A stretch of DNA of 54,792 nucleotides from Planctomycetaceae bacterium (GTDB lineage Bacteria; Planctomycetota; Planctomycetia; Pirellulales; Pirellulaceae), in contig RECD01000276.1 in NCBI GenBank assembly GCA_007694185.1, forward strand, positions 1 through 54,792, read 5' to 3'. A program made the position numbers and the translations under genes. Shown in pieces: positions 3 to 14,325 of the stretch (its first letter is position 1; the number at the start of each line of letters is the position of its first letter). The notes below the pieces were generated by a model that saw only the letters and a program-made list of their open reading frames with translations, was not told where the DNA came from and searched no databases.

Positions 3-2201
3 AACCAGGACGGAACGGTACTCACCAACACGTTGGTCGCCTCTGCCGACAACCTACCGACCGTCGAATCTTCGCACGACGTCACGGTGATCGAACCGGA
101 CCTGGCGATCAGCAAGAGTGTGGATGACTTGACGCCCCGGTTTGGCCAGACGGTTACCTACGAACTGCTGGTGCAGCATTCGGGTGACAGCACCGCCGAC
201 GCGTTTGATTTGGTCATTGAAGATACGCTGCCGGGAAATCTGACGCTGGACCTTAGTTCCGTCACGATTTCATTGACGAGTGGGTTTGTGAATCAATCGA
301 GCGGCAATACGATCCGCTTTTTGGTTGATGAGCTCACTCTCAACGGGGATTTCACGATCAGCTATGACGCCGTCGTGACTACCGAGATCGATCAATACGG
401 CAGCGTCAACACGAACTCGGCAGCGGTCGACTGGACGAGCCAGCCTGGGGAGAACCCGGATGAGCGGACCGGTGACGGGGGCATCAACGATTACTTGGAC
501 GACACGAACGTTTCGATCACGATCTTTGGTCCCGATTTGCGGGTGACGAAGGACAACGGCGAAACGGTCTTGTTGCCTGGGGAGGAGTACACCTACACGA
601 TCATCGTGACCAACTCCGACGGGCCATTCTCTTTGACGGCCAACAACGTCGTCGTCGTCGACGAGGTGCCGGTGGGGTTGACAGTAGTCGGCACCGCCGG
701 GGGCGATGGGCCGGCGCTGATCGACGGTCAGACGGTGACCTTCAACCTCGCCAGTTTGGACCCTGGCGAGTTCGCGACGTTCACGATCACCGTGCTCGTC
801 GATTCACCGGTTGCCGCCGGGTTGAATGACATCATCAACGTGGTGTCGGTAGTCCACGATGACGTCGACCCGACACCGGAAGACAACACGGACACGCACC
901 CGAACTCGATCAATGCGGTTCCCGACTTGGTCGTCACCAAGACGAGCAGCGTTGAGGAAGCGGCACCGAGCGACTTTTTTAGCTACGTCATCACGGTGGA
1001 AAACGTAGGGAATCAGGACGCGACCGGCGTCACCGTGGTCGACGACTTTCCGTCGGCCGTGCTGCTGTTCGTCGGTGCCACCGGCGGTGGCGTTTACAAT
1101 GCCCTCACCGGCGAAGTCACTTTCGACGTGGGTGATCTGGGCGCCGGCGACAGCGTCAGCTTCACGATCGATGTGCAGGTGCGTCCGATCGTACCGCCGG
1201 CCTTTTTCGAGTTCACCAACTTCGTCATCGCGACGGACGACGGCAGTGGCGGACCCGACCCGACACCGGAGAACAACGAGGATTCCGTTACGGTCGCGTT
1301 ACCGGCCCACCCGCTGCTGGCGATCGAAAAGGATGACGGGCTGGAGACGGTCGAACCGGGCCAGGTCTTCACCTACTTCATCACGGTTCAGAACATCGGT
1401 AACCAGGGGGCCACTGGTGTTGAAGTCGTCGACGTGTTGCCTCCCCAGTTGATCTTCATCGAAGCGTCCGACGGCGGTGTCTTCGATCCCGACACGGGGG
1501 AGGTGACCTGGATTATCGGCGAGTTGCTGGACGCTTCCACGGTCAACTTGACCCTGACCGTTCAGGTGCCGGCGGACTTCCGCATCCCGCAGACGATTTT
1601 CACGAACCTGGTGACCGTGACCGACGATGGGACGAACAGCATCGACGGTCAACCGCAGGTGGCCACCGACAGCGATGACACGGAGTTGTTCTTCTTTGTC
1701 TTTGACTTTTTCAACAACCTGTCCCGACCTACGGAATGGACTCCGTTCGACGAGCCGAGGTTCGAGCTGCCGGACTTGCCGGTCGACCCGATTTTCTCGG
1801 GGTGTGCCGACCCGGGCACGACGCTCGAGGCGGTGATCTACGACGAACGCGGCATCGTGATCGGTCGGCGAACGGTCGTGGCGGATGCCGGCGGCAATTG
1901 GTTGATGACATTCCCTTCGACGATCATCTCGAAGCCGCCTCACCGCATGGACGTGGTCCAAACGTCCCCGTCGAGCGACCAGAACCAGGACGCCGCGTTC
2001 AACGTCCGGCGTCACTTCCATCCGACGATCCATGGAACGTTGTTCTTTTCCAAAGCGGATACCGTCAATAGCGTCTTGAGGAACCGACCGAGTGTGGTCT
2101 TGGATTCGATGAGTGAGGTGGCCGCGCGTCCGGTGACGACCGATTGGAGTTTGCAAGGCCAGGATTTCCGGATGTCGTCTGTTTCCCCGGCGGAACGTTA
2201 G
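3..2201 (+). CDS. DUF11-repeat giant surface protein, C-terminal part (5' truncated by window edge)
   Basis: The frame is open to the left edge, so only the last ~732 residues are present; the TTG at 33 is just an internal codon. At least four DUF11-type beta-sandwich repeats are visible, each starting with a phrase like DLAISKSVDD, DLRVTKDNGE, DLVVTKTSSV or LLAIEKDDGL and continuing with YTITVTN/VENVGNQ..GVTVVD. DUF11 repeats are typical of very large secreted or cell-surface proteins. After them (from about nt 1690) the protein changes to a Ig-like stretch (FSGCADPGTTLEAVIYDERG, then DAGGNWLMTFPS) and an unrepeated tail rich in R and S that could carry a sorting or export signal; this last point is inference. 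The next gene, a SecA-like ATPase, starts 25 bp downstream, suggesting substrate and exporter are linked. No membrane anchor or LPxTG motif is seen at the C-terminus. Confidence 0.85.
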   Translation, partial: NQDGTVLTNTLVASADNLPTVESSHDVTVIEPDLAISKSVDDLTPRFGQTVTYELLVQHSGDSTADAFDLVIEDTLPGNLTLDLSSVTISLTSGFVNQSSGNTIRFLVDELTLNGDFTISYDAVVTTEIDQYGSVNTNSAAVDWTSQPGENPDERTGDGGINDYLDDTNVSITIFGPDLRVTKDNGETVLLPGEEYTYTIIVTNSDGPFSLTANNVVVVDEVPVGLTVVGTAGGDGPALIDGQTVTFNLASLDPGEFATFTITVLVDSPVAAGLNDIINVVSVVHDDVDPTPEDNTDTHPNSINAVPDLVVTKTSSVEEAAPSDFFSYVITVENVGNQDATGVTVVDDFPSAVLLFVGATGGGVYNALTGEVTFDVGDLGAGDSVSFTIDVQVRPIVPPAFFEFTNFVIATDDGSGGPDPTPENNEDSVTVALPAHPLLAIEKDDGLETVEPGQVFTYFITVQNIGNQGATGVEVVDVLPPQLIFIEASDGGVFDPDTGEVTWIIGELLDASTVNLTLTVQVPADFRIPQTIFTNLVTVTDDGTNSIDGQPQVATDSDDTELFFFVFDFFNNLSRPTEWTPFDEPRFELPDLPVDPIFSGCADPGTTLEAVIYDERGIVIGRRTVVADAGGNWLMTFPSTIISKPPHRMDVVQTSPSSDQNQDAAFNVRRHFHPTIHGTLFFSKADTVNSVLRNRPSVVLDSMSEVAARPVTTDWSLQGQDFRMSSVSPAER

Positions 2202-2226
2202 GCCGGCGGGCAACTTGGGAGGCGGC

Positions 2227-4170
2227 ATGCTATTTCGAAAGACGGGAAATCGCTTCGGGTTACTTCCAACAGGCCGCTGGTCTGCCTCGCGTCTGGCTGA
2301 TGAAATCCTGCGGTTGGCACCCGATCGGGAGGGGCTTTCGGATCAAGAGTTGCTTGGCTGTGCCGCGGATTGTCGCTGCAGTGTACGCGGGGGCGCAGAA
2401 GCCGATGCGGACGAAACGTTGTTGGCCGTCGGCCCGCTCGTCTTCGAGGCGATCCGGCGGCATCTCGGTTTTCGGCTGTATGCCGTGCAACTGCACGCCG
2501 GCATCGTGTTGGCTCGTGGCGGGATCGCCGAGATGGCGACCGGCGAGGGTAAAACGCTGGCCGCCGCGTTGCCGGCGGCGGTCTGGGGGCTGACCGAGTC
2601 CGGGGTCCATGTCGCCACCGTGAACCAGTTTTTAGCGGAACGGGATCATCGCCAACTCCGTCCCGTGTATGCCGCCTTGGGGTTGTCGTCTGCCTTGTTG
2701 CCGGAACAGGCGGCGCTCGAAGAGAAGCGGGCGGCTTACCGGGCGGACATCGTCTATGCCAGCGGTTATGAACTCGGTTTCGATTACTTGCGTGACCAAG
2801 CGGCGCTATTTCGTCGGCCGGTTTCCCGTTTGGGTGACGGTTTGTTGGCGTCGCTTCGTGGCGATTCGGCTTCGGACTTTGCGCCCGTTCAACGCTCCCG
2901 CGGCATGTGCATCGTGGACGAGATTGACAGCGTGCTGATCGACGAGGCCCGCACGCCACTCGTCCTGAGTGAACCGCCGGGGGATGCCATGGCATCCCCG
3001 CAGGGCACTCGCCGAGGTGCCGAATCCGATGGGGATGCTTACGAGCGTGCCCAAGTGGTCGCCGAAAGTTTGGCCCTCGGGCGGGATTACCGCCTCGACC
3101 CGCGAAAAAAAAGTGTCGAGTTGACCGAGCGGGGACTGGCGGCGGTCACCGAGTCCGCACCGATGAAGTGCCCGTTGCGGCGTCCTTGGGCCGTTTATGT
3201 CCAGAATGCCCTCCGGGCGGAGCACCTTTTGCAACGAGACGTTCACTACGTCGTGGACGATGGGATTCGACTGGTGGATGAGTTCACCGGAAGGATCTTC
3301 GATCAGCGTGTGTTGCGGGGTGGCCTGCACCAGGCGGTCGAAACCAAAGAGCGACTGTCGCCGTCACCGGAAAACCTGACTTCGGCAAAAATCTGTCGGC
3401 AGCGTTTTTTTTCGCTCTATCAAACTTTGAGCGGGATGACGGGCACGGCGAGTTCGGCGCGTCGTGAGTTCCGGCGTTTGTTCGGCCGTAAAGTCGATCA
3501 GGTTCCGTTGGCGCGTCCTTCCCGACGGCGGTATTACCCCACTCGCTACTTTGCGGCCGCAGAAATCAAGTACCGGGCGATTTGCGATGACGTCTTGGGG
3601 CGTCATCGCCGAGGCCAGCCGGTGTTGGTCGGTTCACGGACGATCCGCAACAGCGAAGTGATCGCCGAATTGCTGCGGAAGCGCGGCGTCCCCTGCCAGT
3701 TGCTCAACGGCCGCCAGGACCTTGCCGAGGCGACCGCCGTCGCCGCTGCCGGGCGGATGGGGGCGGTTACGGTCGCCACCAACATGGCCGGCCGCGGAAC
3801 CGACATTCGGCTCGGCGAGGGCGTTGCCGAACGGGGCGGGCTGCACGTGATCGGGGTGGAACGGCACGAATCGACACGGATCGACCAGCAGTTGGCCGGC
3901 CGCTGTGCCCGCCAGGGAGACCCCGGGTCGGTTCAGTTCTTCGTTTCGGCGGAGGACGACTTGATTCGCTTGTATGATTTCCGGTTGGGATTTCGGATCG
4001 CCAAGTACGCTGCCGCGGATGGGGAGTTGTATGGTAACCTCGATAAACGGATCAACCGCTTACAACTGCGGGTCGAAGGACGCCACGCCGCTGAACGTGC
4101 CGAACTCTTAAGACAGGATCAGCAGCTCAATCAATTGTTGGCTCAGGCGGCCGGCATTCGAACCGGATAA
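2227..4170 (+). CDS. Short SecA-like preprotein translocase ATPase
   Basis: A 647-residue SecA homologue. It has Walker A (MATGEGKT, ~residues 104-111), the SecA DEAD signature DEIDSVLIDEARTPL (~232-246), a preprotein cross-linking region containing VDEFTGRIFDQR, GMTGTA, and the second motor domain with TNMAGRGTDIRLGEG (~518) and IDQQLAGRCARQGDPGS. Family SecA proteins run 800-900+ residues. This one ends inside the helical scaffold helix, at about the place where SecA normally reads YDDVxNxQR (here RQDQQLNQ), so the helical wing, two-helix finger and zinc-binding tail are absent. ATG 2227 is preferred over TTG 2215 because GGGAGG lies just upstream of the ATG. Context is a DUF11 giant protein upstream and two membrane-fusion-type proteins downstream. 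It is probably a dedicated paralogue rather than the housekeeping SecA; its energy-coupling mode is unknown. Confidence 0.9.
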   Translation: MLFRKTGNRFGLLPTGRWSASRLADEILRLAPDREGLSDQELLGCAADCRCSVRGGAEADADETLLAVGPLVFEAIRRHLGFRLYAVQLHAGIVLARGGIAEMATGEGKTLAAALPAAVWGLTESGVHVATVNQFLAERDHRQLRPVYAALGLSSALLPEQAALEEKRAAYRADIVYASGYELGFDYLRDQAALFRRPVSRLGDGLLASLRGDSASDFAPVQRSRGMCIVDEIDSVLIDEARTPLVLSEPPGDAMASPQGTRRGAESDGDAYERAQVVAESLALGRDYRLDPRKKSVELTERGLAAVTESAPMKCPLRRPWAVYVQNALRAEHLLQRDVHYVVDDGIRLVDEFTGRIFDQRVLRGGLHQAVETKERLSPSPENLTSAKICRQRFFSLYQTLSGMTGTASSARREFRRLFGRKVDQVPLARPSRRRYYPTRYFAAAEIKYRAICDDVLGRHRRGQPVLVGSRTIRNSEVIAELLRKRGVPCQLLNGRQDLAEATAVAAAGRMGAVTVATNMAGRGTDIRLGEGVAERGGLHVIGVERHESTRIDQQLAGRCARQGDPGSVQFFVSAEDDLIRLYDFRLGFRIAKYAAADGELYGNLDKRINRLQLRVEGRHAAERAELLRQDQQLNQLLAQAAGIRTG

Positions 4171-4176
4171 GCAAGT

Positions 4177-4503
4177 ATGACAGATTCGATCCCCGCAGGA
4201 GGAAGTCGAGACGACGCGCCACGTGTTCGTGTCGAATACGATACCCGTGAAGTGCAATTCGCTAGCCAGTTCATCGTGAGCGGTTCCGCGGAAGGGATTT
4301 TGTTGGAGCTGTCCGGCGGCACGATCAGCGATGATCGCACGGGAGAACTCGTCTTGCCGATCCAGTCCCGGATCGGACTGACTGCTGGCGGGGCGAGGCG
4401 TCTGGCCGAGATGCTGCTGAGAGCCCTCGAGCAGGTTCCTGGTGACGGCACCAGCCATTCGTCCGTCCATGCGGCGCGTCTGCCCAAACTCCGCCCGCAC
4501 TGA
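4177..4503 (+). CDS. DUF3467-like small protein
   Basis: A 108-residue soluble protein starting 6 bp after the SecA-like stop codon, so it is almost certainly in the same operon. The central pattern (a beta-rich FIVSGSAEGILLELSGG, then LPIQSRIGLTAGGARRLAEM and LLRALEQ) resembles DUF3467 proteins, where a strand-rich half with a phenylalanine/glycine core is followed by R(I/V)xxxxxxAKRLxxxL. No signal peptide or membrane segment. Function of DUF3467 is not known; here its position between the motor ATPase and the membrane fusion protein suggests an accessory or adaptor role, which is inference. Family assignment is by eye and should be read as moderate. Confidence 0.7.
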   Translation: MTDSIPAGGSRDDAPRVRVEYDTREVQFASQFIVSGSAEGILLELSGGTISDDRTGELVLPIQSRIGLTAGGARRLAEMLLRALEQVPGDGTSHSSVHAARLPKLRPH

Positions 4504-4520
4504 CTTGACTAATTACCGCT

Positions 4521-6389
4521 GTGATTACTTCGCTCGCACCCGAACCCATTCCCCTGCCACCGGCAGACCCGGCGGCCGTTTCGCCGACCGATTTGGCGCG
4601 GCTGCATGTCGCGTTGCTCGAGCGGGTGGTGGCGGCCGCCGACCCGGAGGCGGCGATCCGAGGTTTGTTGGACGTCAGTCGGGAACTCACCAACGCGATC
4701 GCCACGGCTTATTTCATTGGGCCTTCTGACGCACAGGTAGTCCCGCGGGCGGTTGACGGTGCGTCCGATTTCGACCCGCAGTCGGTTTTCAACGACCCTC
4801 AATTTTCGGCTCCGTTGCGACAAGCTTTCGAGCAGCGGGCCGTGCAAATCGCCCCGCTCGAATCGTTGCGGGGCGCGATCGCGATCCTCGTCCCGGTGTC
4901 GCACGTCGACGGGACGACGCCTGAGGGGGAGGAAACGGGGGGCGACGGGGTCGCTTCTGGCGTGTTGGCCGCGTTGTTGGTGGTCGAAGGCGAGCCGCTG
5001 GAACCTTTTGTCGTCGTGCTGCAACTGTTGGTCGGCTACCTGTCGCTCGCGGGTCAGCGGTCGTTGACGGCTCGATATCAATGGGAAGCTGTCAACGCGT
5101 CAGCGATCCTGGAACTGGTTCGCCGCATTCTCGACGCGGAAGACGCTCATCACGCCGCCTTCACGATCACCGATGGGGTCCAGCGGCATTTGGACGTCAA
5201 GGAAGTTGCGGTGGGACGCCAGCGGCGGGGCAAGGTTCGCCTGGAGTCCTTGTCGGGGCATTCCGAGTTGACGCCCGGCAGCGAACTCGGCGGTGAGTTC
5301 TCTGCGGTGCTTGGAGAAGCCTTGATCAAGGATGACGAAACGTCTTGGTCGGCCGATTCGGCGCGTCCGACGACCGAGCCGCACCGTCGGCTGTGTGAAT
5401 CGCGTCGAGCCGCCTTCATTCACAGCGGGCCGTTGGTCGCCGAGGGGGATTCCCCCCGCTGGGCCTGGGTCATTTTGGCCGACCGACCGCTGGTGGAATC
5501 GGAGCAGCGCTGGTTGACCGCTGCGGCGCCTTTGTTGGCGACCGCCTTGGAGGCTGTGACCGCGGCGTCGCGCGGGCGTGGTTTGGCTGGGAACGCCCGC
5601 ATCGGCCGCAAGTTGTGGGTTGTGGCGGCGCTTGTACTGGCCGGTCTATTCGTTCCGGTCCCGTTTCACGTGCGCGGGGACAGTGTGATCCAGCCGATGA
5701 CGCGGCGATTCGTTTCCGCTCCCTTCGACGCGACCTTGGTGACGAGCACCGTTCGACCGGGCGATCTGGTTGCCGCGGATCAACTGTTGGCTCGGTTGGA
5801 CGACCGCGACCTGCGGAGCCAATTGACCGAAGCGATCGCACAACAATCGAGTGCCGAAACGAAGGCCAAGGCCAGTTTGGCAAATCGGGAGGTGACCGAA
5901 TCACAATTGGCGAGGATCGAGGCCGATCGTCTCGGCTTGCGGATCGATTTGTACCGTCGGCGGCTGGATGAAATCGAGATCAAGGCCCCGATCGCCGGCG
6001 TGGTTTTGGCTGGCGATTGGGACCAGGCGATCGGGGCGCCGTTGCGGGTCGGCCAGACCCTTTTTGAAGTCGCCCCCCTCGACCAGATGCGGATCGAAGT
6101 CGATGTCGCCGCCGAAGACGCTGCGTGGGTATCCGAGGGGTCCGAGGTCGCCTTGTGGTTCGACACCATCGGCCGCTCGGACACGGCGACCGTGACGCGG
6201 TTGCGTCCCCGATCGGAAGTTCGAGACGGCCGGAACGTGTTTGTCGCCGAAGTCGAATTGGACAACGCGGATGATACGTTGCGTCCCGGGATGCGAGGTT
6301 CGGCCCGCGTGCGATCGGGGACGCATCGGCTGGGGTGGGTGCTGCTGCGGAAACCTTGGTACTTCATCCGCGACCTATTTTGGTGGTGA
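4521..6389 (+). CDS. GAF-domain / HlyD-type membrane fusion protein
   Basis: A 622-residue protein in two halves. Residues ~1-360 form a soluble alpha/beta region with at least one GAF-like domain (~185-350, e.g. ILELVRRILDAEDAHHAAF then WVILADRPLVESEQRWL). A single membrane segment follows (~365-384, WVVAALVLAGLFVPVPF). The C-terminal half is a periplasmic-adaptor (HlyD/RND-MFP) fold: a lipoyl half-motif (VSAPFDATLVTSTVRPGDLV), a short coiled coil, the second half-motif (IKAPIAGVVLAGDW), then a beta-barrel part. Start is GTG 4521, because an in-frame TGA lies at 4506-4508. The stop codon abuts the ATG of the next gene with no spacer, implying coupling. MFPs normally bridge an inner-membrane exporter to the outer envelope; an N-terminal GAF on the cytoplasmic side suggests a sensory input (inference). 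Confidence 0.85.
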   Translation: MITSLAPEPIPLPPADPAAVSPTDLARLHVALLERVVAAADPEAAIRGLLDVSRELTNAIATAYFIGPSDAQVVPRAVDGASDFDPQSVFNDPQFSAPLRQAFEQRAVQIAPLESLRGAIAILVPVSHVDGTTPEGEETGGDGVASGVLAALLVVEGEPLEPFVVVLQLLVGYLSLAGQRSLTARYQWEAVNASAILELVRRILDAEDAHHAAFTITDGVQRHLDVKEVAVGRQRRGKVRLESLSGHSELTPGSELGGEFSAVLGEALIKDDETSWSADSARPTTEPHRRLCESRRAAFIHSGPLVAEGDSPRWAWVILADRPLVESEQRWLTAAAPLLATALEAVTAASRGRGLAGNARIGRKLWVVAALVLAGLFVPVPFHVRGDSVIQPMTRRFVSAPFDATLVTSTVRPGDLVAADQLLARLDDRDLRSQLTEAIAQQSSAETKAKASLANREVTESQLARIEADRLGLRIDLYRRRLDEIEIKAPIAGVVLAGDWDQAIGAPLRVGQTLFEVAPLDQMRIEVDVAAEDAAWVSEGSEVALWFDTIGRSDTATVTRLRPRSEVRDGRNVFVAEVELDNADDTLRPGMRGSARVRSGTHRLGWVLLRKPWYFIRDLFWW

Positions 6390-8567
6390 ATGACGCTCGC
6401 ACCCGACTATGCCGTCCGTGAACTTGAGCAACTGCGGTTGACACTCCGCGAGGATTTGCGGTTTTCGCTGCGTTCGGAAAGTGGCAGCATTTGCTACGTC
6501 GCCGAGGATCCGGTCGCGGGAGCGTTCTACCGGTTAGGAAACGCCGAATATGAGTTTGTCTCCGAACTCGATGGCGAGGCGGACTTGGCGACCGTCTTGC
6601 GTCGCACCTCTTCGCGACTAGGGGAGGACGCGTTCACACTCGAAGAAGCCACCGCCATCTGTCAGTGGTTGCTCGAAACCGGGCTGGCGACGACGGCCGA
6701 CAGTCGTACAGCGGAAATGTTGTCTGACCGGGCCCAGCGGCTCCGGCAACAATCGCTGCGGCGTAAAGTTCACCCGTTGTTTCTCCGTTTTCCGCTGGTC
6801 AATCCCGACGGCTGGGTGCGACGCCTCGCCCCCCTCGCGGGCGTCGCCCTGTCGTGGCCGGCCGGTTTGGTATGGCTGCTGGTCGTGGGCGCCGGTGGGT
6901 TGGCGGTTGTCGATGAATGGGCGACCTTCCGCCATGAATTGATGAGGGTTTGGGTGCCGAACCGTTGGTTGTGGTTGGCAGGTGCCTGGGCTTTCTTGAG
7001 GCTGGTTCACGAATCGGCTCACGGCGCCGTCTGCCGGTATTTTGGCGGACATGTCCCCGAAGGTGGCATGTTCATGATCCTCGGGATGCCGATCCCCTAC
7101 GTCGACGTCACGAGTTCTTGGCGATTCGGTTCGAAGTACCACCGGATCGCGGTGTCTGCGGCCGGGATGTACGCCGAGGTTTTCGTGGCCGCCCTGGCGG
7201 CCTTGCTCTGGTCGGCATCGGACGCCGCGACTACTCGGTCGCTCGCCCAATATGTGATCGTCTCAGCCGGTTTCACGACGATCGTCTTCAATTTGAATGT
7301 GCTGATGCGGTTCGACGGCTACTACATGCTCGTCGATTGGATGGAACTTCCCAACCTTTACAGTCGGGGCACGCACTACCTCGGCTACCTTTACCGCCGC
7401 TTCTACCTCGGTCTGCCGGTCAAATCGCCATTGGCCAGTGACCAGCACGCCAACTTCATCCGAATCTACGCGGTCGCCGCCCTCGGCTGGCGGATCGCCG
7501 TGATGTTCGGCCTGATGACGGCCGCGGTGCTGATTTTTGGTGAGTTGGGATGGCTGCTGGTCGTCGCAACCGTGTTGATGTGGCTGGTGGTTCCGGGCTA
7601 CAAGGCGGTTCGCGGGGCCCTGTTTGGCGATGCCCGCCAACCGGGGACACCCGGCCGATTCCTAGCGATGACCTCGCTCGTGGTGGCTCTGTTGATGCTT
7701 GCCGCTTGGGCGATCCCGAGCCCTTGGGGCCAAGTGTTGCCCGCGGTCGTCGACTACGCCGATCTGCGTCGGGTGCGCAACGAGTCGCCCGGCTTCATCC
7801 GCTCGGTCGAGGTCACGACGGGACAGCAGGTCAAGGCCGGCGAGGTGCTGGTTCAGCTCGAAAACCCGGAACTGACCAGCGAACTGGCCAACCTGCGACT
7901 GGTCCGACAGCAAATCGCCACTCACCAGCTACGCGACCTAAACCAGCGAGAGATGGCCGTTCATCAGGCGCGGGACAACGAGCTTGAAGTTGTCGATCAT
8001 CAAATCGCTTTGTTGGCGACCCGTACTGAAGCGTTGACGCTGCTGTCGCCCATCGACGGACGGATTGTCGCCACAGAGATCGAATCGCTCATCGGGCGGT
8101 ACGTGGAGGCGGGAACCGAATTGCTGATCGTAGCTGACGAACGGAATAAGGAACTGGTGCTCGCCACCGAACGGGTCGAGTCGACTGAGCTTCAGGGCAT
8201 CACCGAAACCCGAACGACCATCCGTGGTGGAGGCCAGTTGCGGACGTCGGCGCCGGTATTTGAGCCGCGTGCGACCCGTACGTTGCCTCATCCCGCGTTC
8301 GCCGCCGACGCCGGCGGAACGCTCGCGGTTCGACCGGTCGAGTCGTCGTCAAACTCGGCGGATGTCAGCCACGAATTGGCTGCCCCGGCCTTTCGCGGCC
8401 GCATCCCACTTTCGAACTCCCAGGCGGAGGGGTTGTTGGCGGGACAACGGGCGTCAGTACGTTTGATCGGCCGCGACCAAACGCTCGGGGATTGGCTCCG
8501 CAGGATCTTGGCCAAGTCCGCCGCGAACTGGCGGGCTGTTTCCCGCCATGTCCCGCCGACCGAGTGA
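6390..8567 (+). CDS. PqqD-like / M50 zinc metalloprotease / lipoyl (HlyD-like) membrane protein
   Basis: A 725-residue polytopic protein. Residues ~20-105 resemble a PqqD-type winged-helix domain (GAFYRLGNAEYEFVSELDGE). The central membrane region carries the site-2-protease zinc motif HESAH (H207, E208, H211) and the downstream conserved Asp in FDGYYMLVD (D309), so the active site looks intact. After the last membrane helix (~430-445) comes a biotinyl-lipoyl/HlyD-like region (GFIRSVEVTTGQQVKAGEVL, ~467-487; SPIDGRIVATEI) interrupted by a low-complexity stretch. This architecture (PqqD + M50 + HlyD) is found in peptide and protein export loci. It starts directly at the stop of the GAF-HlyD gene, so the two probably act together. 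Possible jobs are processing of the exported protein or release from the membrane (inference). Confidence 0.88.
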   Translation: MTLAPDYAVRELEQLRLTLREDLRFSLRSESGSICYVAEDPVAGAFYRLGNAEYEFVSELDGEADLATVLRRTSSRLGEDAFTLEEATAICQWLLETGLATTADSRTAEMLSDRAQRLRQQSLRRKVHPLFLRFPLVNPDGWVRRLAPLAGVALSWPAGLVWLLVVGAGGLAVVDEWATFRHELMRVWVPNRWLWLAGAWAFLRLVHESAHGAVCRYFGGHVPEGGMFMILGMPIPYVDVTSSWRFGSKYHRIAVSAAGMYAEVFVAALAALLWSASDAATTRSLAQYVIVSAGFTTIVFNLNVLMRFDGYYMLVDWMELPNLYSRGTHYLGYLYRRFYLGLPVKSPLASDQHANFIRIYAVAALGWRIAVMFGLMTAAVLIFGELGWLLVVATVLMWLVVPGYKAVRGALFGDARQPGTPGRFLAMTSLVVALLMLAAWAIPSPWGQVLPAVVDYADLRRVRNESPGFIRSVEVTTGQQVKAGEVLVQLENPELTSELANLRLVRQQIATHQLRDLNQREMAVHQARDNELEVVDHQIALLATRTEALTLLSPIDGRIVATEIESLIGRYVEAGTELLIVADERNKELVLATERVESTELQGITETRTTIRGGGQLRTSAPVFEPRATRTLPHPAFAADAGGTLAVRPVESSSNSADVSHELAAPAFRGRIPLSNSQAEGLLAGQRASVRLIGRDQTLGDWLRRILAKSAANWRAVSRHVPPTE

Positions 8568-8921
8568 AGCCGTTCTTCGCTCGGCCCACGATATCCGCCC
8601 CGGGATCCTCGAGAGGTCGGTGCGGTATCGATTCGCCTGCGCCGCGACTCTCTGCGGTTTCGATTTCGGCCGTTTCGATGGCCGCTGGGGCAGGCGCCCC
8701 GGGAACGCCGATCTCCAAGACGCCCGTCGGATCAAAGATCCGGCGCGATGATTCGGCATGTCGGTTCGGATCGCCTGAGTCGTGCGGACGAATCGGCGAG
8801 AAAATCGGCACTTGGCCTTCAGTTTGGCGACGGCGAATGCCGACCAAAATCAACGGGATGGATCTTTTCTTCGTTGTCATGGATCGACCAGACTTTGGCT
8901 CATGTGTGTCTGGTGCTCTCA
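8568..8921. other. Intergenic region with two strong hairpins
   Basis: No convincing gene. Two inverted repeats stand out: GGGGC/GCCCC around AGGC at 8687-8700, and a 9-bp stem with one G-U pair around AAA at 8725-8745 (CGTCGGATC / GATCCGGCG). Neither is followed by a T-run. They lie between the M50 gene and the EEP-like gene, so they could stop or stabilise the upstream transcript. An open frame continuous with the EEP-like gene runs back to 8748, but its translation there shows no protein character. Confidence 0.5.
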
Positions 8922-10001
8922 ATGTCGATTCGACTCGGCCAACTCTTGTCCTGGCGCGGCGTGGCTTTGGCGGCGCTGCTGACCGGCGGCTACCAATTGC
9001 ACCAACGGTTCGAGCTCGATGGGCTGAGCGGGCTGGCGGTGAAACCGCGTGCGGCGGACGCCCCGGATCCCGTTACGCCTGACGAGTCCGAGGCGAGCAC
9101 CTGGTTCGCGGGGCTGTACCCGCTCGGATCAGGGGAAAAGGGTGGCGATCGCGTCAAATCGGATTCGGTCGAGGCGACCCCCGTGTCGGGCTCACGGTCT
9201 GTTGTCGGCGCCAGCGTCAACCCTCGCAACCTGGTTGTCGGCACTTGGGCCTTGAACGGGTTCGGACCCGAGCAGCTCGATGACGAAACGGTGATGCCGA
9301 TTTTTGCATCGGTGGTTCGGCATTTCGATGTCATCGCGCTGCAGCAGGTTCGGGTCTCCCAACGAGACTTTCTTCATCGTTTGGTCGCCCGTTTGAATCG
9401 CGACGGCCGTCAGTACGAGACGCTCAGTACCAACGATTTGAACGTCTGGCGGGTCGATGGCGCGGCGGAGCATCTGGTGTTCTTGTACGACACCCGGCGG
9501 GTCGTGGCGGATCGAACCCAGCTCTATCGGGTCGCAGACCCCGAGAAGCAGCTCCGAGATCCGCCGTTGGTCGCCTGGTTTCGCGCGGCCCAACCCGACC
9601 CGCAGTTGGCGTGGACCTTTTCGCTCGTCAACATCCGGGTCGACTTGTCGCGCGCCCGGCAAGAGATCCGTCACTTGGGTCGCTTGGCGGAGGCGGTCGC
9701 GGGGGACGGACGTGGGGAGGACGATGTGATCTTGGCGGGGCTGTTTCAGGCCGACCATGCCTACCTCGGCAGCGTGATGGGCGAGCGCAAGTATTGGATC
9801 GCGAATCAGGCGAGCGCCACCGATGTCGACGGCCGCCATCAGACGAGCAACCTGATCATCAACCGGCGGCATACGACCGAATCGTTGATGCGAAGCGGTG
9901 TGATCGATTTCCTGCGGGTACACAACCTCAGCATCGAGCACGCGAAGCGGGTTAGTCCCTACCTGCCGGTGTACGCCGAATTCAGCCCCTGGGAAGGTTG
10001 A
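8922..10001 (+). CDS. Endonuclease/exonuclease/phosphatase-fold protein with degenerate active site
   Basis: A 359-residue protein of the DNase I-like (EEP) superfamily, recognisable from VGTWALNGFG, FDVIALQQV, VILAGLFQAD, NRRHTTESL and YLPVYAEFS, which line up in order with the family motifs. Active members carry Q-E in motif 1, G-D-F-N in motif 4 and S-D-H-x-P-V near the C-terminus. Here these read Q141-Q142, G273-L-F-Q276 and S345-P-Y-L-P-V, and the Y-D-N of the central motif reads T-S309-N. Every catalytic or metal-binding residue I can place is replaced while the scaffold is kept, so this is most likely a pseudoenzyme. ATG 8922 is chosen because it gives an N-terminal hydrophobic anchor (SWRGVALAALLTGGYQL). 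It follows the exporter-like genes after a 354-bp gap. Confidence 0.8.
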   Translation: MSIRLGQLLSWRGVALAALLTGGYQLHQRFELDGLSGLAVKPRAADAPDPVTPDESEASTWFAGLYPLGSGEKGGDRVKSDSVEATPVSGSRSVVGASVNPRNLVVGTWALNGFGPEQLDDETVMPIFASVVRHFDVIALQQVRVSQRDFLHRLVARLNRDGRQYETLSTNDLNVWRVDGAAEHLVFLYDTRRVVADRTQLYRVADPEKQLRDPPLVAWFRAAQPDPQLAWTFSLVNIRVDLSRARQEIRHLGRLAEAVAGDGRGEDDVILAGLFQADHAYLGSVMGERKYWIANQASATDVDGRHQTSNLIINRRHTTESLMRSGVIDFLRVHNLSIEHAKRVSPYLPVYAEFSPWEG

Positions 10002-10048
10002 TCCTACTGGCAGGCGTTGCCGGCAGAGGTGAACGTCTGGTTTCGCTT

Positions 10049-10076
10049 CGCCGCGAGTTCCTTTGATGTCGCGGCG
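10049..10076. terminator. Possible terminator hairpin downstream of the EEP-like gene
   Basis: CGCCGCGA and TCGCGGCG form a perfect 8-bp stem around a 12-nt loop, 48 bp after the stop codon of the EEP-like gene. No U-run follows, so if it ends transcription it is not a classical intrinsic terminator. Confidence 0.35.
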
Positions 10077-10151
10077 GACTCGCCGCTCGCGGGGTTAAGG
10101 ATGCCGACAGGTGTCCTTCGGCAAAACAAACACCCGCAGTTGGCCCTGTTC

Positions 10152-10184
10152 ATCGGCAGGTTATCGGCAGGTTAACGGCAGGTT
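10152..10184. repeat. Three tandem copies of an 11-bp unit
   Basis: ATCGGCAGGTT, ATCGGCAGGTT and AACGGCAGGTT follow each other without a gap, then AACGG starts a partial fourth copy. The copies differ at a single base. It lies in the convergent gap between the EEP-like gene and moeA; no function is apparent. Confidence 0.8.
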
Positions 10185-10430
10185 AACGGAAGGGCGCGAA
10201 CCCTCCGGTATTGCGATTGCCGACGCACCGGACGGCTTGCGCCGTGCCGCTACATTGCTCCGCCAGAAGGCTTGGTAAGCACGTCGACGGGTGTTGGTCC
10301 GCACAATATGAAGGCGCTCATTCACACCTAATTTAGCTGTTCGCTAGGATGCTGATGGTGCGCCTGACGATCCGCAAACCGACCCGATCCGCCCCCAATT
10401 CTGGCGAACCGTCCCCATGAGCCAGCGGGC

Positions 10431-11651
10431 TCACCACGGGAAAAAGGGCCACGGCCCGGGGCCGGATTCTCCGGGCGGCTGTTCGATGAACCCCTCGCTG
10501 CGGCCTAGTGAAACGAGATCGCCCGAACCCTGGCTGGTGATCCGTTCGACCTGGGTCGGCCCCGTAGCGGGGGTGGCGGCGCCGAGGATGACCAGTCGCA
10601 TCCAGTGCAGCGGCAAGGTTTTGTCGTCGGGGTTCGCGACGGTGACCGCGAGCGGTTGTGGCCGCCAATCGCGGCGTCCGCCGAGTTTGGTCAATAGCGG
10701 CAGCCCGATTCGCATCAGGCAGCAGGCTGTGCTGACGGGGTTTCCAGGCAGGCCCAGCACCAATTGCCCCCGGTGGGCGACGGCTCCCAACACCGGTTGC
10801 CCCGGCCGGATCGGCAGCCGATGAAAGAGCGTTTCGCAACCGGCCGCGGCGAGTACCCCGGGGACGTGATCGTGATCCCCTTTGGAGACACCGCCGGTCA
10901 GGATCACCGCGTCGCTGTCGTCCAGGCAGCGTTCGAGCAGTTGTCTCAAGGCGGCGGGCTGGTCGCCGCAACGGGTCATCCGTTTCAGTTCTATCCACGG
11001 GCGGGCTTCGACCATCGCCGCGACGGTCGGCCCGTTGCTGTCGCGGAGTTGCCAAGGTTGAGGCGACTCTTCGACCCCGAGCAGCTCGTTCCCGGTCACG
11101 ATGACCGAGACGGTGACGCGGCGGAATGCGGTCACGCGAGCCGCGCCGAAGTTGGCCGCTGCGGCGATCGAGGCCGCGTTCAGGCAGGTGCCGGCGGCCA
11201 GGATGGCCGAACCCGCCTTGGCGTTTTCGCCACGGCGGCGGATGTTCGCGCCGGCAGGCTGTTGCCTCGCCACATCGGCCCAACGGATGTGGTGAGATGA
11301 TTCGCTGACGTCTTCGCGACGGATCACCACCTCGGCGCCGGACGGAACGATCGCACCGGTAAAAACGCGCACCACGCCGCCAACCGGCAGCGGCCCGCTC
11401 GGGGCGCCGGCCGCGATTTCGCCCGTTACCTCGAGTTCACCGGCTTCGCTCAAGTCGGTTAGCCGCGCGGCGTAGCCGTCCATCGCGGAGACGTCAGCCG
11501 CGGGGCTGTCACGATCCGCCCAGATCGGTTCGGCCAAGACACGACCGGCGCTGGGGCGGATCGCTTCAGTATCGACCGGCGACAGACGTTCCCCCAACGT
11601 CTCGATCGCTTCGTCAGGTCCGGACAAGGGGCGAATCGGTTCCGGCATCAC
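10431..11651 (-). CDS. moeA: Molybdopterin molybdenumtransferase MoeA
   Basis: A 406-residue cytoplasmic enzyme that inserts molybdate into adenylylated molybdopterin, the last step of molybdenum cofactor synthesis. Family motifs appear in order: SAMDGYA near residue 55, VFTGAIVPSGAEVVIRREDV (~95-115), the MoCF domain with SVIVTGNEL and VILTGGVSKGDHDHVP, and LVLGLPGNPVSTACCLM in the C-terminal part. Length fits the family. The start may be GTG (11651) with AGGAG 7 nt upstream, or the ATG one codon later. No other Moco gene is adjacent; the preceding gene on the same strand is a mannose-1-phosphate guanylyltransferase 173 bp away, so any co-transcription looks functional coincidence. Confidence 0.95.
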   Translation of the reverse strand: MMPEPIRPLSGPDEAIETLGERLSPVDTEAIRPSAGRVLAEPIWADRDSPAADVSAMDGYAARLTDLSEAGELEVTGEIAAGAPSGPLPVGGVVRVFTGAIVPSGAEVVIRREDVSESSHHIRWADVARQQPAGANIRRRGENAKAGSAILAAGTCLNAASIAAAANFGAARVTAFRRVTVSVIVTGNELLGVEESPQPWQLRDSNGPTVAAMVEARPWIELKRMTRCGDQPAALRQLLERCLDDSDAVILTGGVSKGDHDHVPGVLAAAGCETLFHRLPIRPGQPVLGAVAHRGQLVLGLPGNPVSTACCLMRIGLPLLTKLGGRRDWRPQPLAVTVANPDDKTLPLHWMRLVILGAATPATGPTQVERITSQGSGDLVSLGRSEGFIEQPPGESGPGPWPFFPW

Positions 11652-11824
11652 TGCGGAGCTCCTGCTGGAGGGCTGGCGAGTTCAGGTTCGGGTGCGGCCG
11701 ATCGGCGGGCCGACATGTGCAGAATCGGCGGCTGTTTGCTCAAACGACACGGCGCAGCGCGGCAGTTCAGGGCGCGAGCGTTCCCTGCAACGCCATCGCT
11801 ACGGATGTCGGAACGGGGTGAAGC

Positions 11825-12898
11825 TTACAAAAAATCGTCCCAGCCTCTGCGTTCGATTTCTTCCACCGCTTTGCGAACCCGTTCTTCCGACCGTTTGGGG
11901 GCGACGAGGGTCGCGTCGGGGGTATGCACGATGATCAGGTTTTCGACATCGATCGTGACGATCAAATGATCGGACCCGCCGTGGACGATCGTCCCCTGGG
12001 TATCGATCCCGATGTGGCGGCCCTGGACGGCGTTGCCGGCCGGGTCGAGCGGTTGCAGGCGGGCGATCGCTTGCCAACTGCCGACATCATCCCAATCGAA
12101 GGGAGCTTGGATCACGACCACATTGTCGTGGCGTTCCAGCACGGCGTAGTCAATCGATTTGCCGACGATCCGTTGGAATCGGTCGTCCAGGGTTGCATCG
12201 AATTCCGGGGTGCCGACCCGTTCGCCGATCTCATCGAGGTGTCTGGCCATGTCCGGTTCGTGGCGGCGGAGCAGATCGAGGATCGTGTCGGCTCTCCACA
12301 AAAAGATGCCACTGTTCCAGAGAAACTCACCCGATCGCAAGTACTCGGTGGCGGTCGCCGCATCTGGCTTTTCGCGAAATCGATCGACCCGAAAGGCAGG
12401 CGTTTCGGTCTCACCCTCCGCGATCACCCGGCCTCGCTGGACGTATCCGAACGACTCCGCGGGATAGGTCGGCGGGATCCCGAACGTCACGATCCGCGAG
12501 GGGTCTTGGGTGATCAGATCGACCCCGGTACGGACCGCCGTGGCGAAGGCGGCGCGGTCGATGATCACGTGATCGGTCGGCATGACCAACAAGACGGCGT
12601 CGGGATCTTCGGCGACCAGGATCGCTGCGGCCAACCCGACACAGGGGGCGGTATCTCGCCGGCAGGGTTCGCCGATCACGCGGGTGCCGGGCAATTGTCG
12701 CAACACCGGATCGACCAGCGGCCGGCTGGTCACCACCAGCCGTCGAGCCGGCGGAACCGACTCGCCCAGCCGATCGGCGGTCGCTTGGATCATCGTCGAC
12801 TGGCCGGCCAAGGCGAGCAGTTGTTTAGGCAGCAGGCGGCGGCTGGCGGGCCAGAATCGGGTACCACTCCCCCCGGCCATCAGGACGGCATGCAACAT
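11825..12898 (-). CDS. manC: Mannose-1-phosphate guanylyltransferase
   Basis: A 357-residue nucleotidyltransferase that makes GDP-mannose from GTP and mannose-1-phosphate, a sugar donor for polysaccharides and glycoproteins. It begins with the pyrophosphorylase signature GGSGTRFWPASRR followed by PKQLLAL, and carries LLVMPTDHVI, ESFGYVQRG, FREKPD, FLWNSGIFLWRADTI and PFDWDDVGSWQAI, all in the usual order. It is the short form: the C-terminal phosphomannose isomerase cupin domain found in AlgA/ManC fusions is absent. It starts 46 bp after the RdgC-like gene and shares its strand with a glycosyltransferase further upstream, which fits a role in surface glycan synthesis. Confidence 0.95.
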   Translation of the reverse strand: MLHAVLMAGGSGTRFWPASRRLLPKQLLALAGQSTMIQATADRLGESVPPARRLVVTSRPLVDPVLRQLPGTRVIGEPCRRDTAPCVGLAAAILVAEDPDAVLLVMPTDHVIIDRAAFATAVRTGVDLITQDPSRIVTFGIPPTYPAESFGYVQRGRVIAEGETETPAFRVDRFREKPDAATATEYLRSGEFLWNSGIFLWRADTILDLLRRHEPDMARHLDEIGERVGTPEFDATLDDRFQRIVGKSIDYAVLERHDNVVVIQAPFDWDDVGSWQAIARLQPLDPAGNAVQGRHIGIDTQGTIVHGGSDHLIVTIDVENLIIVHTPDATLVAPKRSEERVRKAVEEIERRGWDDFL

Positions 12899-12944
12899 GG
12901 TGATTTCCTGATCGTCAAGGGTCGAGGGGAGCTTCGTCGCGGCT

Positions 12945-14129
12945 TCAAGCGGCGGCGTTGCGACGGCGTTCGGGATGCAAGGGGCTGGCCCAACGGCTGA
13001 TCTTTTCCAACTGCTCGCCCCAATTCGTTGAGATGCGGACCTGGAGGAAGCGTTCGTAGAGTCGATCGAGCGTTTCGTTCAGTTGGCGGATCGCATCGAT
13101 CCGGCTCTCCAACACCGCTCGGCCTTCGGCGTCGGGGTCCTTGGCCAACTTTGCCCCGCTGATCGCGAGCGATTCCGCTTGGAGAGTCAGCTCATATTGC
13201 TGGCCCAACCGAACCAGCGTCAAGCCGGCCTTCCTCGGCAGCTTGCCGGTACGGATCGCTTCCATCGCTTCGGGGAGCCGCGTGGGGTTCTCGAACGACA
13301 ACGATTCGCGGCCGGACAGCCCGGCGGGGCATTCGAGCGCCAGCGAACGAGCGAACATCACGGCGACTTCGGTGCCATCGGCCAGTGCGAAGGTGTCCGA
13401 TTCTTGGTCCACGGCGTGCCACAACCAGAGCAGGAATTCGTTGCCGAGGAAGTCCGGATGGGGTGAATCGGCGTTGGCCCAACCCGCTTCGCCGCCGGTG
13501 TGTTCGGGGTGGAAAACGGCGGGCCGGATTTCGTCGAGGAGTGCCTCGGCTTGGTTGGCCTGGGCCCAGCGGGTTGCCAGGTAGCCGGCCCCGGCGCGGT
13601 CGAACTGCATGCCGAAGGCCGCGGTCATCAGCAGCACGAACTCGTCGGCGGCTGCGCCGCGGGAGCCGCCGAAGTAGACCATCTCGCTCGGGGCATCCCA
13701 GAGTACGGGATAGTGATTGCTGCGGACGTACTTGCCCCCTTCCGATTCGACCTTGGCACGTTGTTCGACCGCCTCTTTTGCCGCTTCCCGCTGCGCCTTG
13801 GTCGGGCGTCGTCCGGGGTTTTCGGCCATCAACGCGTGCAATTCCATCTGGGTCCAGGCCCGCAGGATGGCCGCCGGGATCTTGTGCGTGTCGATGCGAA
13901 TCCCGAAGTGGAGGGCGTCGATCAGGACGTTCTTTTCGAAATCGAACGTGCGATCGAACAGGTGGTCGCCACCCAGGAAGCCGGAGCGGATCGGGTCGTC
14001 GGCTGTCGGTCGCGTCTCGCCAGCCACCCGTTCGGCCAGCCGCTCCAAGTGTTCGGGGCCGAATGTCCGGACCTCCGGGCTGACGACGTGGAATCGCTCG
14101 AAGCTGAGGCTGCCAGAGAGAAATGCCAT
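12945..14129 (-). CDS. RdgC-like recombination-associated protein
   Basis: A 394-residue protein without signal peptide or membrane segment. The start MAFLSGSLSFERFHV, GFLGGDHLFDRTFDFEKNV (~48-66), the statement-like RIDTHKIPAAILRAW and LLWLWHAVDQESDTF, and a charged helical middle (AQREAAKEAVEQRAKVE) are the pattern of RdgC-like proteins, DNA-binding rings that limit RecA loading in E. coli. It is longer than E. coli RdgC (303 residues). ATG 14129 is chosen over an upstream in-frame start because the text before it has no protein character and homologues begin at this M. It sits between a glycosyltransferase and manC on the same strand; the context does not explain it. Family call is by eye. 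Confidence 0.7.
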   Translation of the reverse strand: MAFLSGSLSFERFHVVSPEVRTFGPEHLERLAERVAGETRPTADDPIRSGFLGGDHLFDRTFDFEKNVLIDALHFGIRIDTHKIPAAILRAWTQMELHALMAENPGRRPTKAQREAAKEAVEQRAKVESEGGKYVRSNHYPVLWDAPSEMVYFGGSRGAAADEFVLLMTAAFGMQFDRAGAGYLATRWAQANQAEALLDEIRPAVFHPEHTGGEAGWANADSPHPDFLGNEFLLWLWHAVDQESDTFALADGTEVAVMFARSLALECPAGLSGRESLSFENPTRLPEAMEAIRTGKLPRKAGLTLVRLGQQYELTLQAESLAISGAKLAKDPDAEGRAVLESRIDAIRQLNETLDRLYERFLQVRISTNWGEQLEKISRWASPLHPERRRNAAA

Positions 14130-14325
14130 GGAGTGATACCAAGCGGAACGGGAAGAATCGGACACCGCGAAGGGAATGTCCTGCCAAGAGCTTTGGATAT
14201 CGGTCGTCAGCGTCGGGGACCTTCGGCAAAGCGGCGATGCCGACACGCTTTGTCCCAGTGAAGCCGGCGCTTCAGTCGCGACAATCGGTAAGGTTTGCCG
14301 GCGACCACCCCCGACCCGAACCGCT

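Follow-up and report, generated by a model that had tools for sequence, protein, structure and literature searches.

How some very large bacterial proteins might leave the cell is the question raised by a run of genes at the start of a contig from a Planctomycetaceae bacterium (GCA_007694185.1, RECD01000276.1, here C184), where the end of a DUF11-repeat protein is followed at once by a short SecA motor and by HlyD-type membrane proteins. The window, that is, the whole stretch of 54,792 nucleotides analysed, starts at base 1 of this contig; the genome comprises 5.78 Mb in 288 contigs. The locus probably encodes a dedicated, SecA-powered exporter of the HlyD/TolC type together with a large cargo protein carrying an N-terminal tag. 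The sequence-only reading of this DNA had described a self-contained secretion or surface-assembly system with the giant protein as substrate, and this is supported by the comparisons below, export itself being a prediction. Its account of gene order, common strand and junctions was confirmed: six open reading frames (ORFs) lie on the plus strand as it had placed them, and five genes run head to tail over 3-8567. Here, SecA may start at TTG 2215 or ATG 2227, and the ATG gives gaps of exactly 25, 6, 17 and 0 bp. The features are:

3..2201, plus strand: C-terminal 732 amino acids (aa) of a DUF11-repeat protein, the proposed substrate (DUF11 6.7e-64, Pfam/NCBIfam); N-terminus off the contig.
2215..4170, plus strand: short (secondary) SecA; motor and preprotein cross-linking domains intact, ending before the two-helix finger and helical wing.
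4177..4503, plus strand: small DUF3467-like protein, 108 aa, which aligns with PF11950 members in or beside relatives' cassettes.
4521..6389, plus strand: GAF-HlyD adaptor protein (HlyD_3 1.3e-17; GAF via relatives).
6390..8567, plus strand: PqqD-like / M50 site-2-protease-like / HlyD membrane protein, HExxH intact.
8748..10001, plus strand: DNase-I-like (EEP) protein with catalytic residues replaced, a neighbour outside the conserved block.

The machine itself was already in print: the locus belongs to a kind published in 2015. Kamneva, Poudel and Ward (PLoS One, PMC4452313) described loci in Planctomycetes, Verrucomicrobia, Proteobacteria, Nitrospirae and Chlorobi at which a secondary SecA_DEAD protein is joined by three type-I-related proteins, suggested the M50 protein as pore former and called the role of the locus completely unknown. 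In the portion of the paper available, the main text names no substrate and makes no use of the words giant, adhesin or DUF3467. As described there, the common features are a SecA without SecA_SW, a GAF-HlyD and an M50-HlyD protein, with a further HlyD and an OEP in some loci. A third HlyD or an OEP, not required by those authors, was not found among the genes at 3-10001, where the contig start hides one side. Relative to the 2015 locus, the giant neighbour, DUF3467, the N-terminal tag and the position of the SecA truncation are added here.

The tag lies a few dozen residues into the protein, where basic residues precede the pattern hydrophobic-E-x-L-E-x-R-x-L-L-[SAD]. It is of the LEPR-XLL motif class, to which Pfam PF07595 (Planc_extracel) and NCBIfam NF012209 (LEPR-8K) correspond. 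The consensus RRLxxExLExRxLLA, presumed to be a new type of N-terminal signal for export, goes back to Studholme 2004 as quoted in PMC8567305, which, in the part available, names no exporter for the Planc_extracel/LEPR-8K proteins that share this motif class with the substrates here.

Only the last 732 aa of the DUF11 protein lie in the window, where giant size is not visible. Its C-terminal domain resembles two giants, both tagged and both beside the same cassette. The first, a 5,810-aa DUF11-like protein of genome G107 (40% over 102 aa, 6e-23), begins MASRKKKLLLEPLEQRIMLDA, carries LEPLEQRIMLDA near its start and is flanked by a short SecA on one side and, on the other, by genes that include OEP, DUF3467, GAF-HlyD and M50. 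The second (45% over 93 aa) is from G346, a one-contig genome of the same family; its open frame of 4,879 aa begins MKKRNTIKTIYQSLLSRRRLWEQMEDRVLFDA, with RRRLWEQMEDRVLFDA near the start, and one strand there carries SecA, a 328-aa protein whose HlyD-type match is weak, GAF-HlyD, M50, OEP and the giant. This likeness makes the window protein most likely the cargo of the adjoining machine. In G330, of the same genus, a contig 84% identical has SecA directly downstream and breaks off almost where the contig of the window does, with 736 aa of the protein left.

The pairing of cassette and giant recurs in a second phylum. When the Methylosinus M50 protein was used as a tblastn query against plasmids, 13 alphaproteobacterial records had a match with a query coverage of 97% or above and a minimum identity of 35%, and 14 loci were taken from them (a second M50 place in the Pontibrevibacter record was left out). 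GAF-HlyD and M50 are present in all 14 loci and the short SecA in 13, commonly in the order giant, DUF3467, GAF-HlyD, M50, SecA. A giant gene adjoins the cassette in 14/14, most giants having 8,000-13,000 aa, and in every one of them the first 85 or so residues of the open frame include E-P-R-x-L-L-[SAN]-A, the LEPR-XLL/Planc_extracel motif. The giant open frames are:

Mesorhizobium: 10,518 aa.
Methylosinus: 8,865 aa.
Pseudosulfitobacter: 12,776 and 12,939 aa.
Rhizobium WSM1274: 10,175 aa.
R. johnstonii: 10,148 aa.
R. beringeri: 8,082 + 2,152 aa (split).
Sinorhizobium: 9,022 aa.
Ensifer: 9,023 aa.
Alisedimentitalea: 8,199 aa.
Pontibrevibacter: 10,630 aa.
Thalassospira: 4,054 aa.
Pseudohalocynthiibacter: 9,033 + 2,547 aa, across the origin.
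Rhodobacteraceae M382: looks broken, with 3,472 aa bearing the tag and 4,238 aa beside the cassette.

How such a machine might work can be set out as follows. Recognition of the tag would fall to the M50 protein, through its PqqD-like domain, or else to SecA itself. Hydrolysing ATP, the truncated SecA would push the cargo, still unfolded, into a passage made up of M50-HlyD and GAF-HlyD in the inner membrane, additional HlyD and a channel of the TolC family; the M50 protease site may cut off the tag. Transport, its direction, translocation in one step and the handling of the tag are thus what we infer from the genes. In its widest form the proposal is tentative, with a little less than an even chance of being right: a self-contained, SecYEG-independent system in at least two phyla, partly plasmid-borne, in which a truncated SecA would replace the ABC motor, giants of up to about 13,000 residues would cross the whole envelope, and one N-terminal tag, recognised through a PqqD-type domain and cut by M50, would address dozens of cargoes per genome.

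The SecA in the window has 651 aa and ends 80 residues past the GRxxRQGxxG motif, with most or all of the wing-scaffold domain gone. Its GEGKT, DE, GMxGT, AGRGxD and GRxxRQG columns, which we take to be the Walker A/B and helicase motifs, are invariant or nearly so in 21 aligned SecA rows, and with these intact the protein is a predicted ATPase. Aligned with 3jv2, a Bacillus subtilis SecA, the structure model (predicted local distance difference test, pLDDT, 84.5) has a Z of 45.3 and a root-mean-square deviation of 5.8 over 580 residues, only chain residues 16-612 of 3jv2 being covered. Past the last motor motif, 53 short SecAs have tails of 69-90 residues versus 303-338 in 6 canonical ones. 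These lengths come from 59 of the 64 SecA proteins collected, the end motif not being found in the other 5; the SecA tree, a midpoint-rooted FastTree without printed support, served the tail lengths alone. About 250 C-terminal residues are absent at the same place in all 53, presumably the two-helix finger, wing and tail. Given this uniform truncation point, the short SecA is a class of its own and not a broken gene. The same genome holds a second short SecA (735 aa, C67:6970-8838; L010, L084) without HlyD/M50 neighbours; proteins grouping with it in the unsupported tree, from G121 and G205, do adjoin the cassette. Separately, protein kinase domains adjoin two short-SecA genes (L152:2-1672, L153:11055-13256).

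The main rival to one-step export, and an unlikely one, is export in two steps. Here, the tag would be an unusual Sec signal, the short SecA a SecA2-like accessory acting with SecYEG, and HlyD/TolC would work at the outer membrane only. The short SecA does keep the motor and preprotein-binding domains, the solved structures best matching its model include Bacillus SecA and Clostridium SecA2, and the M50 protein is the sole dedicated inner-membrane channel candidate encoded. Canonical SecA, however, uses its two-helix finger and wing with SecYEG, and both lie in the C-terminal part that the 53 short SecAs lack. In addition, the tags show, by eye, no hydrophobic core, and no SecY or accessory Sec protein is annotated in the plasmid cassettes viewed or was found among the nine window proteins scanned (3-14246).

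The membrane partners of the SecA in the proposed exporter are conserved across loci. Pfam/NCBIfam confirmed DUF11, the SecA DEAD, PPXD and P-loop domains, and HlyD in two proteins of the window; the GAF, M50, PqqD and DUF3467 of the window copies fall below Pfam thresholds that relatives reach. The HExxH motif is invariant in 28/28 M50 rows including the window, as are the downstream N and D; Pfam assigns Peptidase_M50 to 25 of these rows and PqqD to 14, the window copy having neither. In 17 GAF-HlyD rows, again with the window included, HlyD_3 was matched in all and GAF in 12, the window copy being without a GAF match. PF11950 (DUF3467) was reached by 7/7 relatives of the small protein that were scanned, with which, judging from these alignments, the 108-aa protein belongs. 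Modeling of DUF3467 as a SecB-like chaperone gave a weak model (predicted template modeling score, pTM, 0.53), with a best VIA Z of 4.5 and a best Foldseek E of 0.34; SecB was not among the matches listed. TolC-type (OEP) genes adjoin the block in G238, G051, G107, G346 and Methylosinus. The window's own genome has two further M50-HlyD loci with GAF-HlyD (C27:73469-75016 and C73:9597-11288) and no SecA within the 20 kb viewed; these are possibly another kind of pump, or are supplied with SecA from elsewhere.

The same proteins could instead export a peptide (similar to ribosomally synthesized and post-translationally modified peptides, RiPPs) or a small molecule, with the giant genes as mere neighbours. 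PqqD domains occur in peptide-modification systems, many pumps use HlyD adaptors, and the window M50 protein matches the daptide metalloprotease family at 3e-41, which is below the curated cut-off. Such a function is nevertheless very improbable in view of the 14/14 adjacency to tagged giants in Alphaproteobacteria and of the co-occurrence of tag and machine at the genome level in Planctomycetota, to which we now turn.

The sample comprised 294 Planctomycetota genomes, with 3 M50, 4 SecA and 24 tag candidates scored per genome (up to 89 tag candidates in the window's own family). GAF-HlyD, M50-HlyD and short SecA recur together in many of them; M50 relatives are found in 70 (67 in the LEPR-8K comparison, where low-scoring partial rows were omitted), and an M50 relative lies within 10 kb for 29 among the 133 SecA matches listed. 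LEPR-8K (NF012209) is present in 18 genomes, and 15 of these carry a short SecA versus 26 of the 276 others (p 7e-12). A broader tag profile (46 positions, built from 15 motifs, a match being E 0.01 or better) matched 50 genomes, with short SecA in 32/50 versus 8/244 of the rest (p 1e-22) and, counted by family, in 14/25 versus 4/67 (p 6e-7). For the broader profile, the short-SecA set omits G147 and G222, which have ambiguous partial frames, and includes G030, added by hand from L059; in the LEPR-8K comparison G147 and G222 were kept and G030 is absent. SecA counts were taken from the matches listed, where low-scoring short SecAs may be missed. The check named in advance by the sequence-only reading, a conserved block with varied giant substrates, was thus positive across phyla, through this recurrence in Planctomycetota and the 14/14 alphaproteobacterial loci.

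Within the window's own family the tag was matched in 79/80 genomes (median 15 matches, up to 64, among the candidates scored) and a short SecA in 77/80 (rows under 580 bits left out). The only family genome without a tag match, G370, is 80% complete and is also one of the three for which no full short SecA is listed. The window's own genome has 14 tag matches among the candidates scored, including frames of 5,511 and 5,243 aa. As many tags and a short SecA are found per genome, a single machine probably handles numerous cargoes in trans. Elsewhere, G220 has 20 tag matches among the candidates scored, with, for example, tagged frames of 10,951, 12,094 and 5,823 aa (C58, C13, C54).

Several observations weigh against a dedicated exporter of tagged giants. 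The N-terminus of the window DUF11 protein is beyond the contig edge, and the Thalassospira locus is without SecA. Three genomes, G186 (1.2e-16), G125 and G183, have the tag but neither a short SecA nor an M50 match, G165 carries LEPR-8K and is likewise without both, and 8 of the 40 short-SecA genomes have no tag match, but true cases can escape the profile, as G107 shows. These absences are soft because few first-look candidates were scored per genome, and the p-values overstate independence because the genomes are related. An ORF of at least 1500 aa was present in 6 of 31 SecA-M50 stretches, some of them short contigs, versus 1/19 among 20-kb control regions (p 0.23, Fisher test; a giant seen in both L048 and L152 being counted once). 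Two of these six ORFs (L167, L169) are without a tagged-cargo-like start, and ORFs of at least 1000 aa are already present in 9/19 control regions. As the enrichment is not significant, giants as neighbours in Planctomycetota were not used as support; in G205 and G121 the tag-bearing frames (4,760 and 4,737 aa) are separated from the cassette by about 24 kb, too great a distance to be counted. Service of cargo in trans would explain this lack of significant enrichment. The giant adjoins its proposed machine in all alphaproteobacterial loci viewed (14/14); in Planctomycetota the cargo is often encoded at another place in the genome. As to the Thalassospira marina plasmid (193606-212571, L234), the LEPR-XLL giant, DUF3467, GAF-HlyD, M50, HlyD and TolC are all present.

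That tag and machine occur together through shared ancestry or genome size only is the least probable alternative: genomes rich in surface proteins are large and related, and a few tag genomes are without the machine, but the link persists by family and, in another phylum, as direct neighbours on plasmids.

The proposed exporter can be compared with two known systems. Type I secretion (HlyB-HlyD-TolC) of giant adhesins has HlyD adaptors, TolC and giant repeat cargo in common with it; here, in contrast, a truncated SecA would be the ATPase, the tag is N-terminal, and no ATP-binding cassette (ABC) transporter is directly beside the giant or cassette genes. No HlyB-type ABC transporter was found among the nine window proteins scanned, or between or directly beside giant and cassette genes in the annotated plasmid loci; in two plasmid records, ABC genes of the peptide type are found past SecA, at a distance of about 8-10 kb. 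Gram-positive SecA2 accessory systems likewise employ a second SecA, and some of them serve large surface proteins. They differ from the present loci, where SecA is cut before the finger and wing, the partners are HlyD and M50 proteins, and no SecY2 or accessory Sec proteins were seen.

The DNase-I-like protein at 8748-10001 (3.2e-6) had been counted with the block and read as dead. It is probably inactive because residues at what we take to be its catalytic sites are replaced (QE to QQ, H to R, GDFNAD to GLFQAD). Its membership of the system was rejected, since phmmer found no relative of it in the ORFs of 243 fetched loci, of which many span no more than about 3 kb. Beyond it, 10087-10330 belongs to an interspersed repeat family with at least 46 further matches elsewhere in the genome at 70-100% identity.

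What appears to be new here, on the genomic comparisons, is the pairing of a known machine with giant cargo and a known tag; a link between the three was not found in open PubMed Central (PMC) papers, bioRxiv and subscription papers being outside the search. Two orphans seem to fit together, the tag of 2004, which had no machine, and the SecA/HlyD/M50 machine of 2015, which had no cargo. Matched in this way, they predict by which route certain bacterial proteins of very large size are exported.

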